Source of the DNA: Halosolutus halophilus
GTDB taxonomy: Archaea; Halobacteriota; Halobacteria; Halobacteriales; Natrialbaceae
Direction: 5' to 3'
Length of the DNA: 64,000 nucleotides
Assembly: GCF_022869805.1 (NCBI RefSeq)
Contig: NZ_CP094974.1
Coordinates: 4,402,001 to 4,466,000, forward strand
In this document: positions 15,011 to 54,620 of the stretch, piece after piece
How the letters are laid out: each line of letters starts with the position of its first letter
Position numbering within the stretch: the stretch's first letter is position 1
Program-made: the position numbers and the translations under genes
The notes under the pieces: generated by a model
What the model saw: the letters and a program-made list of their open reading frames with translations, nothing else
Database searches by the model: none
What the model was told of the DNA's origin: nothing

Positions 15011-15898
15011 TTATTCGTGGGGTTCTCGAACGGCCGCGATCGTCTCGCGGGCCAGCGCGTCGAACGTCGCCTCCGCCGGTACCACGTCGACGTCTATCCC
15101 CCGCGACTCGGCGGTCCGCTTCGTCGGGTCGCCGATCGCGCCGACGGTCGCGCCCCGGAGGCCCGCGAGGGCCGATTCGCGGACCCCGCGCACGTCGGCG
15201 GCCTCGAGGAAGTGATCGACCGTCAGCGACGAGGTGAAACAGGCGGCGTCGAGTTCGTTCTCGGCCGCGAGTTCGGCCGACTCGCCGCTCCCCTCGGGTC
15301 GGACCAGCCGGTAGAGGATCGTCTCGTGGACGTACGCGCCCGCGCTCTCGAGTCCCTCGAGCAGGACGTCGCTGCCGTGATCGCTCCGGGCGACCTCGAT
15401 GCGGACACCGTCGACCCCGGCTCGCGGCTCCGCCGTCTGCTCGCGGTCTGACGGACCGCTCGCATGGTCCGAGGGACTCGGAGAGTCCCTCGCTACTCGA
15501 CTGTCCGCGGAACGGAGTTCCGCGCTACTCGCTCGTTCCCCGGAGCCACGCTCCGCGCTCCCGTCGAGCGCCGCGACGAGGCCGCTCGACGTGAACTCCT
15601 CGGGGACGAGATCGACCTCGTAGCCCACGTCGCGGAGGGCGTCGGCCGTCGCGGGCCCGATCGCACAGACGGTCGCGTCGCCGGGGTCCCAGCCGGCGTC
15701 GGCGGCGAGTTCCGCGCCGGTCTTGCTCGTCAAAATCACGTAGTCGGCGTCGGTCCGTGGGGCGGCGTCGGTCGGTTCGACGGCGAGCATGGGGTCCGGA
15801 ACGGGGTCCGCACCGAGTGATTCGAGCAGGTCGGCGGCGTCCGCGAGCCGATCGTCGTCGGGGCGAAAGACGGCGACCGTGGGGGTGTCGTCACTCAT
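15011..15898 (-). CDS. hemD: Uroporphyrinogen-III synthase
   Basis: 295-aa HemD, which closes hydroxymethylbilane to uroporphyrinogen III. The two-domain HemD fold is visible: VAVFRPDDDRLADAADLLESLG, YVILTSKTGAELAADAGWD, then CAIGPATADALRDVGYEVDLVP. The second half has DAACFTSSLTVDHFLEAA and GATVGAIGDPTKRTAESRG. Residues about 110-160 are an Arg/Ser/Glu-rich linker not seen in compact HemD proteins; it is encoded by three GC-rich hairpins inserted in frame (15471-15555). Last gene of the hemC-cobA-hemD operon; its ATG lies six bases after the cobA stop. Confidence 0.92.
   Translation of the reverse strand: MSDDTPTVAVFRPDDDRLADAADLLESLGADPVPDPMLAVEPTDAAPRTDADYVILTSKTGAELAADAGWDPGDATVCAIGPATADALRDVGYEVDLVPEEFTSSGLVAALDGSAERGSGERASSAELRSADSRVARDSPSPSDHASGPSDREQTAEPRAGVDGVRIEVARSDHGSDVLLEGLESAGAYVHETILYRLVRPEGSGESAELAAENELDAACFTSSLTVDHFLEAADVRGVRESALAGLRGATVGAIGDPTKRTAESRGIDVDVVPAEATFDALARETIAAVREPHE
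15471..15555. repeat. Three in-frame hairpin elements inside hemD
   Basis: Three perfect hairpins, each with a 3-nt loop. GAGGGACTC/GAGTCCCTC is at 15471-15491, CGCGGAAC/GTTCCGCG at 15506-15524, and CGGAGC/GCTCCG at 15541-15555. The first two are each followed by GCTACTCG or CTACTCG on the plus strand. They keep the hemD frame and encode a low-complexity linker. The middle one is the same 19-bp palindrome found in pspAB at 54353-54371. Confidence 0.75.
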
Positions 15899-17848: not shown

Positions 17849-18045
17849 AGGCGGTAGTGGTCGCCTCGAGTATGAAAAGCGCACGCTTGTCCGCCGGGCC
17901 GGGCGACGGATCGATCGCCGGGCCCCGCTTGTCGTCCCGCCGGACGATCGGTCCGACGACTGGATCGCGGCAGCGGTCCGACGATCGGGGTCACGGCGGC
18001 GGACCACGACGACGAACGACGTCGTCGGCGAGCGCAACCGCGGAT

Positions 18046-18080
18046 CGTGTTGATGCGTATCAACACGATGATAAATATTA
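18046..18080 (+). promoter_or_regulatory. Operator-like palindrome and TATA region of the first EamA gene
   Basis: CGTGTTGAT at 18046-18054 and ATCAACACG at 18059-18067 form a perfect 9-bp inverted repeat with a 4-bp spacer. It lies directly upstream of the AT-rich GATAAATATTATC element (18070-18082), which sits about 26-38 bp before the ATG at 18108 and is the likely TATA box. The position fits a transcription-factor operator covering the BRE/TATA region. The cognate regulator is unknown. Confidence 0.7.
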
Positions 18081-18107: not shown

Positions 18108-19058
18108 ATGCGATACGGTACCGCCGGACTGTTCGTCCTGCTCGCAGCCGTCTGGGGGCTGTCGTTCGTCGCGGCGCGCGCCGCGCTGCCGTACATTCCG
18201 CCCGTTCCGCTCGCAGCCCTCCGGTTCGATATCGTGGCCGTGGCGACGCTCGCGTACGCGAGCGTCACGACCGATCGGTGGTATCCCGAAACGATCGACG
18301 AGTGGCGCGTCGTCGTTCTCGGCGGGACGCTGTTCGTCGCCGTCCACCACGCGCTGCTGTTCGCGGGCCAGCAGCACGTCACGAGCGCCGTCGCGAGCGT
18401 CGTCATGAGCCTCGACCCGGTGCTCGCCGCCGGATTCGCGTGGGCGCTGCTGGCCGACGAGCGACTCGATCTCGTCGGCGTTCTCGGCCTCTGTACGGGA
18501 CTGGTCGGCGTCGTGATCGTCGCGAATCCGACGTTCGACGGCGCGGACGCGGCGACGATGCTCGGCGTCCTGCTCGTCTTCTTGTCGGCCGCCGCGTTCG
18601 CGCTGGGCGCCGTCCTGACGCGTCGCTATCGAACCGCCCTCCCCGTGCGATCGATGCAGGCGTGGATGATGGTCGTCGGGGCGCCGCTGTTGCACGTCGC
18701 GGCGATCGCGCTCCCGCTTCCCGGATTCGGTGCGATCGAGTGGACGACGCCGGCGCTGCTCGGACTCGCGTACCTCGCCCTCGTCGCCGGCGTCTTCGGG
18801 TACTTGCTCTACTTCGAACTGCTGGACCGGATCGGGGCGATCGAGATCAATCTGATCGGGTACGCCGCACCCGTCTTCGCAGCGATCGGCGGCTGGGCGG
18901 TTCTCGACGAACCGATCGCGGCGCGTACCGTCGCCGGGTTCGCCGTCATCGTCTGCGGATTCGTCCTGATAACGCGCGACTCGATCCGAACGGAACTCGC
19001 GGGCCGGGGATCCCGCGCGGTCGAAACGAGCGGTTCGGACCGACGACGCGATCGCTAG
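18108..19058 (+). CDS. EamA (DMT) family transporter
   Basis: 316-aa drug/metabolite-transporter protein with ten hydrophobic helices in two EamA repeats. The first repeat begins LFVLLAAVWGLSFVAARAAL; the second contains LGVLLVFLSAAAFALGAVLTRRY and IGAIEINLIGYAAPVFAAIGGW with the typical EPIAARTVAGFAVI end. The tail after residue 290 is charged and disordered. ATG at 18108 (MRYGTAG) is preferred over an upstream TTG at 18096, as it fits the TATA spacing. It is a paralog of the gene at 24455, with near-identical segments such as HHALLFAGQQ. Substrate unknown (amino acids or other metabolites). Confidence 0.88.
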   Translation: MRYGTAGLFVLLAAVWGLSFVAARAALPYIPPVPLAALRFDIVAVATLAYASVTTDRWYPETIDEWRVVVLGGTLFVAVHHALLFAGQQHVTSAVASVVMSLDPVLAAGFAWALLADERLDLVGVLGLCTGLVGVVIVANPTFDGADAATMLGVLLVFLSAAAFALGAVLTRRYRTALPVRSMQAWMMVVGAPLLHVAAIALPLPGFGAIEWTTPALLGLAYLALVAGVFGYLLYFELLDRIGAIEINLIGYAAPVFAAIGGWAVLDEPIAARTVAGFAVIVCGFVLITRDSIRTELAGRGSRAVETSGSDRRRDR

Positions 19059-24454: not shown

Positions 24455-25375
24455 ATGCGCTATCGAATGCCCGTTCTGTTCCTGCTCGTCGCTGCGATCT
24501 GGGGATCGACGTTTCCGGCCGTCCGCGTCGCCGTCGACGTCGTTCCCCCGGTCCTGTTCGCTGCCCTTCGATTCGACGCCGTGGCGATCCTCGTGCTGGG
24601 GTACGCCGCCGTCCGTGGCCATCGCATCCGTCCCCGTCGCGGGGAGTGGGCCGGAGTCCTCGCCGGCGGCGTGTTCCTGATCGCGCTCCATCACGCGCTG
24701 CTGTTCGCCGGCCAGCAGTACGTCACGAGCGCCGTCGCCGCCGTCGTCGTCGCGACGGTGCCGATCCTCACCGCGGGGCTCTCGCGCGCGCTGCTCCCGA
24801 GTACCGGCCTCGGCGTCGTCGGTACCGTCGGTCTCGGGCTGGGTTTCCTCGGGACGGCGATCGTGTCCGATCCGGACCCGGCGGCGCTGTACACGGCCGA
24901 ATCGCTCGGCGTCCTCCTCGTTTTCGCCGCCGCCATCGCGTTCGCGCTCGGGTCGGTCGTTACCCAGCGAACCCGGACCGGACTCCCGATCGCCTCCCTC
25001 CAGGGGTGGATGATGCTCGTCGGCGCACCGGTCCTGCACGGTGCGAGCGTCTCACTGGGGGAACCGCAGTCGATCGACTGGACGCCGGCCGCGGCGGTCG
25101 CGTTCGTCTACCTCGTTCCCGTCGCCGGCGGCCTCGGCTACCTGCTGTACTTCGACCTGCTCGATCGACTCGGCTCGATCGAGATCAACCTCGTCACGTA
25201 CCTGTTACCGGTCTTCGCCGCGATCGTCGGCTGGCTCGTCCTTCGAGAACCGCTCGCGCCGTCGACGGTCGTCGGATTCGTCGTCGTCGCCGTCGGCTTC
25301 GCCCTGGTCAAGCGGCGGGCGCTCGCGCGACTCGTCTCGAGGGGGCCGCGGGCGGGCCACGAAGTGGATCGGTGA
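24455..25375 (+). CDS. EamA (DMT) family transporter, second paralog
   Basis: 306-aa ten-helix EamA transporter. It begins MRYRMPVLFLLVAAIWGSTF and shares segments with the protein at 18108 (HHALLFAGQQ, TSAVAAVVV, and SIEINLVTYLLPVFAAIVGW), so the two arose by duplication. The ATG at 24455 is chosen because in-frame upstream codons to 24314 lie within non-conserved sequence containing repeats of GATCGCCGTCGCG. It does not share the palindromic operator of the first copy, so the two may be regulated differently. Substrate unknown. Confidence 0.88.
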   Translation: MRYRMPVLFLLVAAIWGSTFPAVRVAVDVVPPVLFAALRFDAVAILVLGYAAVRGHRIRPRRGEWAGVLAGGVFLIALHHALLFAGQQYVTSAVAAVVVATVPILTAGLSRALLPSTGLGVVGTVGLGLGFLGTAIVSDPDPAALYTAESLGVLLVFAAAIAFALGSVVTQRTRTGLPIASLQGWMMLVGAPVLHGASVSLGEPQSIDWTPAAAVAFVYLVPVAGGLGYLLYFDLLDRLGSIEINLVTYLLPVFAAIVGWLVLREPLAPSTVVGFVVVAVGFALVKRRALARLVSRGPRAGHEVDR

Positions 25376-42833: not shown

Positions 42834-42925
42834 GCGGAAGGGGTGGGATTCGAACGCCACGAGGCACGATGGCCGCCGCGGGGCCAGAGGCACCGCGGTG
42901 CTCTTCCGCTGAGCGACCCTTCCGC
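42834..42925 (-). tRNA. tRNA-like element with an abnormal anticodon arm
   Basis: On the minus strand the ends pair perfectly over nine bases, GCGGAAGGG with CCCTTCCGC. A canonical D-arm follows (GCTC-AGCGGAA-GAGC, with A14, GG and A21 positions) and a T-loop G-TTCGAAT-C. Three things are wrong for a normal tRNA. The T-stem GTGG/CCAC has an unpaired C before the closing G-C. The anticodon arm is an extended CCGCGG/CCGCGG helix with an 11-nt loop. About 15 nt separate it from the T-arm. The best-fitting anticodon, UCU (Arg), has C instead of U at position 33. It may be a decayed tRNA, a tRNA with a small unusual intron or a long variable arm, or a tRNA-like RNA. Confidence 0.5.
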
Positions 42926-49712: not shown

Positions 49713-50993
49713 CTACCCGAACCGGGCGTCGACGACGACGTGATCCACGCCGGCGCTGTGACTCTTGACCCGGCGGCGATCGAGCACCGTGAGGTCCCGG
49801 TCGGCGTCCTCGGCCGCCCGTTCGAGTCGCTCGATCGGCCGGTCCCAGAGCCGCGGTTCGGGCGTCGCCTCGTGGTAGTGGACGACGCCGCCCGGGCGGA
49901 GTGCGGCGAGGGCGTCGTCGAGGAACGTGTAGGCCTCGTCGTCGCGCGCGCGGTCGTCCCGTTCGTCCCGATCGCGGTCCTCCTCGTCGGGCGCGTCGGC
50001 CGCGCTCCCGTAGTACCCCATCACGACCCGATCGACCGCGAGGTCGCCGGCGAGGTCCCGGCAGTCGGTCATGTAGGCATCGACCCGATCGGCCACGTCG
50101 TTGAGCATCGCGTTCTCGACGAGATAGCGGAACGCGGTCGGATTACGTTCCGTCGCCGTCACCCGCGCGCCGGCGCGGGCCATCGGGAGCGTGAAGTAGC
50201 CGATGCCGGCGAACATGTCGAAGACGTGCTCGTCCGCCGCGACGAGGTCACCCATTCGCGCCCGTTCGGCCTGGTTGCCCGGCGAGAACATCACCGTCGC
50301 GGGGTCGAGGCCGTACCGGGTGCCGTGTTCGACGTGGACGGTCTCGGTGTCCCGCTCGCCCGCGACGTGGCGGGTCCGGGGCTCGCGGTAGGTGCCCGCC
50401 GCGCCGTCGTTCGCGATCCCCTCGTCGGCCAGCACGCTGTCGGCCTCGCCGTGCAGTTCGAGCAGCGCCTCGCCGAGGTCCTCTTCGTCGGGACAGTCCT
50501 CGGGCACCGTCACGAGAACGACGGAGCCGACGACGGCCCACGAACCCGGCGCGGCCCCGATCTCGGCCTCGCTCCAGCCTCGATCGGCGAGCAGGTCCGC
50601 CAGGTCCCGCGTCCGGGGCTCGGGATCGACCTGTCGGACGACCTCAAGTACCTGCGTCTCCGTCGGCGGCTCCGTTACCGGGAGCGCGATCCGATCGGGT
50701 CCACCCTCGCGATCCCCGCGCTCACGGGTCGCTTTGTTCTCCGTCTGCTCACGGGCCCCTTGCTCCCGTTCGCACGGTTCGCGGGACCAGAGGTCCCGCG
50801 CTATTCGCGTATCCGAGGGCTTCGCTCCGCTCACCCCTCTCACCCGCCGCGAGTCGTCGTAGACGCCCTCGTCGCGCAGCGACTCGATCGCGGTCTCCGT
50901 CCGCGATTTCTCGACGATCGCGGCCAGCGGGGCGGCGTCCGGGCCGGGGAGCGACGGTTCGAGCGACTCGCTCGCGTCGGGGTCCTCAGTCAT
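49713..50993 (-). CDS. tRNA (guanine/wyosine) methyltransferase, Trm5/Taw2-like
   Basis: 426-aa class I SAM-dependent enzyme of the Trm5/Taw2 group. Residues about 200-320 carry RTRHVAGERDTETVHVEHG, the conserved FSPGNQAERARMGDLV and motif I HVFDMFAGIGYFTLPMA, then TATERNPTAFRYLVENA. The C-terminus ends HSAGVDHVVVDARFG. Group members methylate G37 (Trm5) or transfer the aminocarboxypropyl group in wyosine synthesis (Taw2); I cannot separate them by eye. After GVYDDSRRV (residues about 45-55) there is a 40-residue Arg/Glu-rich insert encoded partly by a hairpin (50780-50800). The start overlaps the nmd3 stop by eight bases, so the two genes are coupled. Confidence 0.85.
   Translation of the reverse strand: MTEDPDASESLEPSLPGPDAAPLAAIVEKSRTETAIESLRDEGVYDDSRRVRGVSGAKPSDTRIARDLWSREPCEREQGAREQTENKATRERGDREGGPDRIALPVTEPPTETQVLEVVRQVDPEPRTRDLADLLADRGWSEAEIGAAPGSWAVVGSVVLVTVPEDCPDEEDLGEALLELHGEADSVLADEGIANDGAAGTYREPRTRHVAGERDTETVHVEHGTRYGLDPATVMFSPGNQAERARMGDLVAADEHVFDMFAGIGYFTLPMARAGARVTATERNPTAFRYLVENAMLNDVADRVDAYMTDCRDLAGDLAVDRVVMGYYGSAADAPDEEDRDRDERDDRARDDEAYTFLDDALAALRPGGVVHYHEATPEPRLWDRPIERLERAAEDADRDLTVLDRRRVKSHSAGVDHVVVDARFG
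50780..50800. repeat. In-frame hairpin element inside the Trm5/Taw2-like gene
   Basis: CGCGGGACC (50780-50788), loop AGA, and GGTCCCGCG (50792-50800) form a perfect 9-bp hairpin with a 3-nt loop. On the coding strand it is preceded by AATAG and followed by AACCGTGCGA, matching the flanks (GTAG before, GACNGT-CGA after) of the copies in hemD and pspAB. Confidence 0.7.
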
Positions 50994-53912: not shown

Positions 53913-54620
53913 ATGGGACTGCTCGACGGACTCCGTGCCGTCCTCGGGTTGCGCGCCGAGGCCGACGCGAAACGGGACGCCGACCCCGACGACCTCTTCG
54001 GGATGAGTACCGCCTACCTCACGATGGAAGCCGATCTCGGCTACGAGTCGCTCGACGTCGGGGCGCTGTGTTTCTCCGGCGTCGATTCGAGTAGCTTCCG
54101 TGACGCCGTCGACGAGGTCGAGGCTATCCTCGAGGCCGGCCAGGAGGAGACCGGAACGGAGTTCTCGGTCTCCGCGGACGACCACGGCTACCACTGGGTC
54201 GTCCTCCGGGACGAGGATCCGGAGGATCTCGTCACGAGTCTGCACTTCGCCGCGGACACGTTCATCGAGCACGGCTACGGATCGCGCCTGCTCGCGGCCG
54301 TCTTCGCCTACGAGAAAGGCGATGCCGCGATGCGGCATCGAGACGGGGGTAGCGCGGAACGGAGTTCCGCGGACCGTTCGAGCGGACAACGTCCGCGAGA
54401 AGACGGCGAAGCCGCCGACGGGAACGGTCGCGTCTACTGGATCTACTCCTTCCGCCGCGGCCGGTTCTACCCCTTCGCGCCCCGCTCCGGCCGCGAGCGC
54501 GACTCGAGCGCGGAGTTCAAACTCGAGGCGGCGCTGGACGGCGAACTCGAGATCGAACGCGAGAAGGAGTACTGGTACCCGCTGTGGCCGAGTCAGGGCG
54601 GCCGCCACCCCTGGGAGTGA
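53913..54620 (+). CDS. pspAB: PspA-associated protein PspAB
   Basis: 235-aa soluble protein of the PspAB family, linked in archaea and actinobacteria to PspA-type membrane stress and HtpX. It begins MGLLDGLRAVLGLRAEADAK, with AYLTMEADLGYESLDVGALC and GYHWVVLRDEDPEDLVTSLH. The C-terminus RVYWIYSFRRGRFYPFAPRS and EYWYPLWPSQG is conserved. Residues about 137-165 (RHRDGGSAERSSADRSSGQR) are low complexity and come from three in-frame hairpins (54321-54396). The htpX gene lies upstream on the same strand. Confidence 0.88.
   Translation: MGLLDGLRAVLGLRAEADAKRDADPDDLFGMSTAYLTMEADLGYESLDVGALCFSGVDSSSFRDAVDEVEAILEAGQEETGTEFSVSADDHGYHWVVLRDEDPEDLVTSLHFAADTFIEHGYGSRLLAAVFAYEKGDAAMRHRDGGSAERSSADRSSGQRPREDGEAADGNGRVYWIYSFRRGRFYPFAPRSGRERDSSAEFKLEAALDGELEIEREKEYWYPLWPSQGGRHPWE
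54321..54396. repeat. Three in-frame hairpin elements inside pspAB
   Basis: Perfect hairpins with 3-nt loops: GATGCCGC/GCGGCATC (54321-54339), CGCGGAAC/GTTCCGCG (54353-54371) and GCGGAC/GTCCGC (54382-54396). The middle one matches the hemD copy base for base on the plus strand, CGCGGAACGGAGTTCCGCG, in an unrelated gene 39 kb away. All keep the pspAB frame. Confidence 0.75.

Follow-up and report, generated by a model that had tools for sequence, protein, structure and literature searches.

The protein segment added to the trm5 gene of Halosolutus halophilus is probably a copy of a haloarchaea-wide, non-autonomous palindromic element that codes for protein. It lies in the window, that is, the whole stretch of 64,000 nucleotides analysed here, which is part of a single-contig genome of 5.06 Mb (G000, the own genome). 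The core of this element would consist of two adjacent hairpins, X and then B, with conserved spacers, entering genes as a precise cassette of 51 or 54 nucleotides, and extra modules (A, C or an additional X) may stack at one site. Within genes the cassette would be retained in sense orientation and mostly in a single frame, with the host enzyme tolerating the acidic loop and selection retaining the in-frame acidic-loop insertions. The arms would change jointly in the DNA itself, probably through correction of quasi-palindromes or exchange of modules via hairpin or single-stranded DNA.

The host gene (Table 1) codes for a Trm5/TYW2-like methyltransferase with Pfam matches to PF02475 (TRM5-TYW2_MTfase, E 7e-49) and PF25133 (TYW2_N_2, E 3.8e-9). 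The first-pass annotation had placed a hairpin inside this coding sequence directly past GVYDDSRRV, and both the Pfam matches and the mapping of the insert, which sits between GVYDDSRRV and PDR, bear this out. Compared with the syntenic gene of G001, a genome of the same genus, the window gene is longer by a net 43 residues (129 nucleotides). The insert is a chain of the hairpins A, X and B plus a possible decayed module, the latter being a weak reading from the letters. In an AlphaFold2 model of the product, built from 29 aligned sequences of the 52, residues 59-96 have a pLDDT below 50 and are flanked by two confident segments (mean 75.5); the loop formed by the insert is predicted to be disordered.

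Table 1. Positions of the three inserts, their hairpins and the trm5 host gene in the window.
Feature	Position	Strand	Basis
Trm5/TYW2-like methyltransferase coding sequence (426 aa), host of insert	49713..50993	-	open reading frame, Pfam, 51 aligned orthologs
trm5 insert region, residues 52-98	50700..50840	-	ortholog comparison, synteny
trm5 module A hairpin (GAGGG...CCCTC)	50815..50839	-	DNA fold; equivalent position in the L004 and L008 inserts
trm5 X-B double-hairpin core, family-defining unit	50741..50809	-	model match of 78.7 bits, by construction, as a training copy of the first covariance model
trm5 X hairpin CGCGGGACC-AGA-GGTCCCGCG, 9-bp arms, 3-nt loop	50780..50800	- (coding strand; hairpin letters read on +)	repeat search and folds
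trm5 B hairpin (ACGGG...CCCGT)	50751..50769	-	sequence, DNA fold
trm5 possible decayed second B/C module (GACGG...CCCGTGAGC)	50720..50745	-	reading of the sequence; weak
hemD insert, about 46 aa; hairpins A, X1, X2, B, C	15419..15556	-	locus comparison, DNA fold
hemD X1 hairpin CGCGGAAC-GGA-GTTCCGCG	15506..15524	-	hairpin search
hemD X2 hairpin CGAGGGACTC-GAGTCCCTCG	15470..15492	-	hairpin search and covariance model
pspAB X-B insertion, 60 nt, between the A and C hairpins; GAGAC before, GAAGAC at end	54345..54404	+	covariance model, orthologs
pspAB X hairpin CGCGGAAC-GGA-GTTCCGCG	54353..54371	+	hairpin search
pspAB module A hairpin	54320..54340	+	hairpin search, orthologs
pspAB module C hairpin	54405..54416	+	orthologs, DNA fold

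Relatives free of the insert were sought by ortholog alignment and are common. We found 55 trm5 loci and aligned 51 of them (L004-L054), excluding the four weakest (L055-L058). A minimal site (...YDDSRRVRE-DGPDRVALP...) was present in 28 of the 51 when the alignment was read by eye, and the other 23 carry additional residues of varied length at the GVYDDSRRV site; the spacing from YDD to ALP exceeds 26 residues in 21 of 52 sequences, the window included. Two genes of the same genus were located by synteny with pspAB: that of G001 has an empty site (YDDSRRVREDGPDRVALPV), that of G002 a short remnant-like form of six residues (YDDSRKVRAVEADREGAPDRIALPV). The insert stems of L004 differ from those of the window.

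Two further inserts in the window are located in hemD, whose product matches PF02602 (HemD), and in a gene called pspAB in the first-pass annotation (apart from Trm5/TYW2 and HemD, hosts are named from a reading of their sequences). The coding strand of all three inserts shows the same order of modules: A, X (GARTAGC-stem-GRACC), B (TKCGARCGG-stem-CCGYGAG) and C. In DNA folds the chain comes out complete for hemD and pspAB, and as A, X and B for trm5; z values against shuffles are -2.9 (trm5), -3.2 (hemD) and -5.5 (pspAB). The X arm of trm5 is indeed one pair longer than in the hemD and pspAB copies, as had been noted, and the two positions at which the arms were said to differ form a single base pair, G-C versus A-T, with one letter in each arm. 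The second X hairpin of hemD was missing from the first-pass list.

The hemD insert was absent from 29 of 29 other loci read (out of 40 matching genomes). The X-B part of the pspAB insert was found in the window only, among 30 loci read from the 38 of 41 genomes that matched. Here, the content of the site ranges across relatives from none, over a C-like hairpin alone (L209) and A plus C with X-B absent (L206 and L208; genomes G002 and G015), to A, X, B and C; the remaining loci are short, or different without a recognisable X-B. The A hairpin of pspAB is GATGCCGC/GCGGCATC in the window versus GATACCGC/GCGGTATC in G002, with one pair changed on both sides. Modules also differ in a transporter-like gene, which has A and B in the own genome (L066) and A, X and B plus another B/C module in G019 (L153).

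The first-pass annotation had described the trm5 hairpin as the third member of a hairpin family. As a lone hairpin it is unremarkable: perfect 9-bp arms with a 3-nt loop occur three times in the window against a mean of 1.4 in dinucleotide shuffles, and 5 out of 40 such shuffles have three or more. We therefore rejected the lone hairpin as evidence, since it is not above shuffles in such GC-rich sequence. The information-bearing unit is X plus B, and as a double-hairpin X-B family the signal stands far above chance. Other ways of searching for the family were set aside as well, namely a strict flank pattern, which gave the three window copies versus four control matches, and BLAST with the whole trm5 insert, for which the best non-self match in the own genome had an E of 2.3e-4 and the next one of 0.018. 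A resemblance at window positions 42877-42897, where no tRNA was called, was likewise rejected as a family copy: the match covers just the hairpin part, with 10.9 bits and an E of 4.2.

Searched with a covariance model trained on five X-B copies, the own genome gave 11 places at E <0.01, four of them training copies and seven new, three of the latter below 1e-7. With a second model, built from 11 copies, 52 of 61 related genomes had matches at E 0.01, with 1 to 59 per positive genome; these counts are lower bounds, at most 86 candidates having been scored per genome (35-150 across all covariance-model searches). In an even draw from the phylum, matches were present in 19 of 24 same-order genomes, the own included, and in 0 of 124 others of that phylum; model E-values are rough and this draw served as the control, with few first-look candidates in many of its genomes. 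The X-B family is specific to haloarchaea and widespread among them. We found no description of it in the open-licence literature of PubMed Central, a scope that leaves subscription journals mostly outside, and the family is apparently undescribed.

Ten of the 11 copies in the own genome (E <0.01) are located at 4.10-5.06 Mb, the last 19% of the contig, in which the window occupies 4.402-4.466 Mb (binomial 5e-7, for an interval picked after the data had been seen). Copies in G029 look scattered, unlike this clustering.

Comparison of filled and empty sites shows how precisely the cassettes are delimited. The UPF0173-like gene of G001 has exactly 54 nucleotides more than five other loci located by pattern (out of 29 others). 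When 13 further hosts were compared with 40 orthologous stretches, nine showed clean differences, either of 51 nucleotides (L200, HemC; L119; L173, PepF-like; L164; L156) or of 54 (L121, L175, L141 and, as a net value, L117). Among the comparisons for these nine hosts, the inserts of L336 and L341 are variants or eroded, and the difference for L365 is 45 nucleotides; the other four of the 13 (L199, L202, L161, L197) gave no clean alignment. Typically, the left end of the cassette is GA[CTG]AGCG and its right end ...CCGCGAG[AC]A-GAC(G); it usually ends with ...CCGCGAGAAGAC(G), often adjoining GAC or GAT. In hosts compared with empty sites we saw no clear target-site duplication, direct repeats being 3-4 nucleotides at most. 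The cassettes would have moved as DNA.

Certain insertions are common to relatives (L118/L204, L198/L203, L160/L205). L147 and L150 (match at 1501-1563), from genomes assigned to families f17 and f1, have the cassette at one site of the same gene with a common unusual end (GAGAACACGA), which might reflect an old insertion or gene transfer. Since some sites are common to distant genomes, as in this pair, vertical inheritance or transfer explains part of the distribution. Overall, gain, loss, replacement and transfer all seem possible. Three apparently related genes starting with M-G-T/I-D (L142, L151, L169) carry the cassette close to their start, which suggests a recurrent N-terminal site.

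Copies inside genes are strongly biased in strand and frame. According to GC content by codon position, 43 of 88 stretches are intragenic and sense, 3 intragenic and antisense, 11 ambiguous and 31 intergenic or without assignment. The three antisense calls did not stand: L142 and L176 read as sense, and L181 looks intergenic. One phase is used by 36 of the 43 intragenic sense copies, and translation of the consensus in six frames shows that this phase is the sole acidic one (net charge -2, hydropathy -1.91), the others having net charges of +1 to +7 and one of them a stop. The peptide of the used frame, D-S-A-E-R-S-S-A-D-R-S-S-G-x-x-P-R-E-D-G, is a hydrophilic, acidic and probably disordered loop. 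Most simply, selection would have removed insertions that landed in a different frame or on the opposite strand, with a bias of the insertion mechanism as the alternative.

The bias towards the sense strand, a single frame and the acidic one of six would also fit a conserved acidic linker or tag that is selected as a peptide and spread through recombination, with the palindrome being incidental. We give this explanation a low probability, for many copies appear to lie between genes and are not a multiple of three in length, insert-free orthologs are common, and the arms covary in DNA while the peptide drifts.

Covariation was analysed in an alignment of 88 matches (80 distinct, from 74 sources), which are best-scoring chosen loci and not a random sample. 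In the 80 distinct copies, 97.1% of the cells are paired versus 81.2% after shuffling, with 175 both-sided changes versus 49.4 expected and 9 one-sided ones, counts that are biased by the fitting of this alignment to the structure; no slid register exceeded 46.6% paired. The cells comprise 1073 Watson-Crick pairs, 11 G-U pairs and 32 others, so that G-U accounts for 11 of 1116 (1%). The claim that hairpin geometry is kept through compensatory change is supported by this joint variation of the arms, with the qualifications that the unit is a chain of several hairpins (A, X, B, C) instead of a single one and that the stems fall into discrete types. Neither is the insert present in all orthologs nor do its copies lack covariation, the combination that the first-pass annotation had named as contrary to its reading.

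The stem types, counted in the 88 matches, are CGCGGAAC (19), CGAGGCGC (12), CGAGGGAC (10), CGCGGGAC (10) and CGCGGAGC (9). Since they are discrete, independent events must be fewer than cells, and what looks like compensatory change may consist of a few old events plus replacement of modules. The B hairpin of L119 is wholly unlike that of its G002 ortholog L336; one-sided intermediates are present too (L208 in pspAB, and L066).

Strong covariation could also point to a structured RNA element whose hairpins are kept for regulation or stability of the mRNA, and RNA folding of the three coding inserts in the window does give structures of greater stability than shuffled sequences (z -4.45 for trm5, -3.23 for hemD, -4.23 for pspAB). 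Folds of the same stretches with DNA parameters beat shuffles too, however, and copies are scattered over many genes that have no relation to one another, at positions that differ likewise, while insert-free orthologs are frequent. Rfam provided no family match, with 0 matches over the whole window and 0 up to E 1 in 17 mostly intergenic loci; one Rfam match considered as a known RNA family was rejected, scoring 15.3 bits where the gathering score is 63. Together with the rarity of G-U pairs, this makes an RNA element improbable. The near-absence of G-U points to symmetry at the DNA level rather than to selected RNA folding.

Arms that are near-perfect and poor in G-U might have been created locally, each palindrome arising independently by slippage or template switching. 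Some loops even differ by inversion: the orthologous X hairpins of L160 and L205 have the loops TAC and GTA, which are reverse complements, as though through an inversion of the hairpin. Nevertheless, the spacers GGACCnTTCGAGCGG and CGCGAGnAGACGG and the order of the two hairpins are common to unrelated genes, which contradicts an independent local origin, and we regard it as very improbable. Local slippage or template switching may instead be a means by which arms are maintained. For the dispersed element that we favour, few G-U pairs and joint changes would fit with palindrome correction at the DNA level.

How such a cassette is mobilised is a separate question. The 5´ foot of the X hairpin (alignment columns 6-9) often reads GTAG or ATAG, mostly RTAG with a minority of other letters, which might hint at REP/RAYT-like or IS200/IS605-derived elements mobilised by a Y1 transposase. 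Intragenic REPs have been described in bacteria (PMC3733652) and the PATEs of Haloquadratum are related to IS605 (PMC3119063). However, PF01797 (Y1) is absent from G000, G001, G023 and G041, which hold at least 22, 34, 48 and 31 copies, and across 61 genomes the Y1 transposase count and the number of copies show no correlation (Spearman 0.10, p 0.46). Dependence on Y1/RAYT transposases was rejected on these grounds, and an element of this origin is unlikely; past action of Y1, or action in trans, is possible. No transposase or integrase is linked to the cassette. Tentatively, and with less than even confidence, we suggest that an order-wide active system other than Y1 copies the 51/54-nucleotide cassettes beside GAC, that hairpin-based correction keeps their self-complementarity and that the acidic frame survives. 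If this is true, the cassettes are a continuing source of acidic surface loops, and halophilic proteins evolve in part through repeat insertion.

So far, coding palindromic elements have mostly been treated as something peculiar to Rickettsia. The Rickettsia palindromic elements (RPEs), as described in PMC10969869 and PMC6649704, are likewise short palindromic repeats inserted in frame into unrelated metabolic genes, with a conserved encoded peptide and copies outside genes too. In-frame palindromic insertion into unrelated genes and a conserved peptide were both found here, whereas the core of 51-54 nucleotides falls short of the roughly 150 bp given for RPEs (PMC10969869); the haloarchaeal chains reach about 130-140 nucleotides. 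Unlike RPEs, the haloarchaeal cassette has two adjacent hairpins and stackable modules and is archaeal, and its arms stay matched, while RPEs are described as losing the identity of their repeats with time (PMC6649704). By analogy, and as a likeness of kind and not of compared sequences, the haloarchaeal family appears to work like RPEs.

REPs tagged with GTAG or CGTC and their RAYTs resemble the cassette in being small hairpin repeats with some intragenic copies and alternative complementary stem residues, as described in PMC3733652; their foot may have a counterpart in the frequent GTAG or TAG letters of the X hairpin. The same paper calls G-U pairs frequent in GTAG REPs and the units opposed in many REP families, whereas in the cassette G-U is rare, X and B are co-oriented and several copy-rich genomes have no Y1 gene. 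No word beginning with Halo or Natr occurs in the text of that paper. The PATEs of Haloquadratum walsbyi are, like our cassette, haloarchaeal, transposase-free repeats bearing palindromes; they are set apart by their description, with near-terminal palindromes related to IS605 ends, and an in-frame coding role is not among the features described in the passages of PMC3119063 considered here. Near-perfect inverted repeats in functional coding sequence have also been reported for mitochondria of nematomorphs, where quasi-palindrome correction is discussed, but these palindromes overlap conserved parts of proteins and form no dispersed family (PMC6649704), in contrast to the added cassette in haloarchaea.

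An order-wide example in archaea with clean filled and empty sites allows an old question, whether repeats write new parts of proteins, to be tested directly in culturable, genetically tractable organisms, and it shows a route from repeated DNA to new protein segments. The cassette family would account for a class of haloarchaeal protein indels rich in Ser/Arg/Glu/Asp, and it points to a mobilising activity. Its G-U-poor covariation offers a natural test of palindrome correction at the DNA level.

Several minor observations were made alongside. A longer repeat of about 200-530 nucleotides, apparently intergenic, has X, B and C hairpins (L166, L167, L168 at about 940-1460, L170, L171, L186-L195) and conserved ends (GGTGGCGCGYGCTG ... 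GAATCGGCTGGGGAGGG ... CCACGATAGCA); L167 and L168 match over 525 nucleotides at 90%. It had no Rfam match; it might have given rise to the coding cassettes, or it might be a structured RNA. The longest perfect hairpin of the window (18044-18069, 11-bp arms, loop GCGT) is by its sequence unrelated to the X-B family. A direct repeat of 244 nucleotides with 73% identity connects window positions 18733-18976 and 25071-25314, and further paired stretches at 18300 and 24644 are 77% identical; these probably represent paralogous genes.
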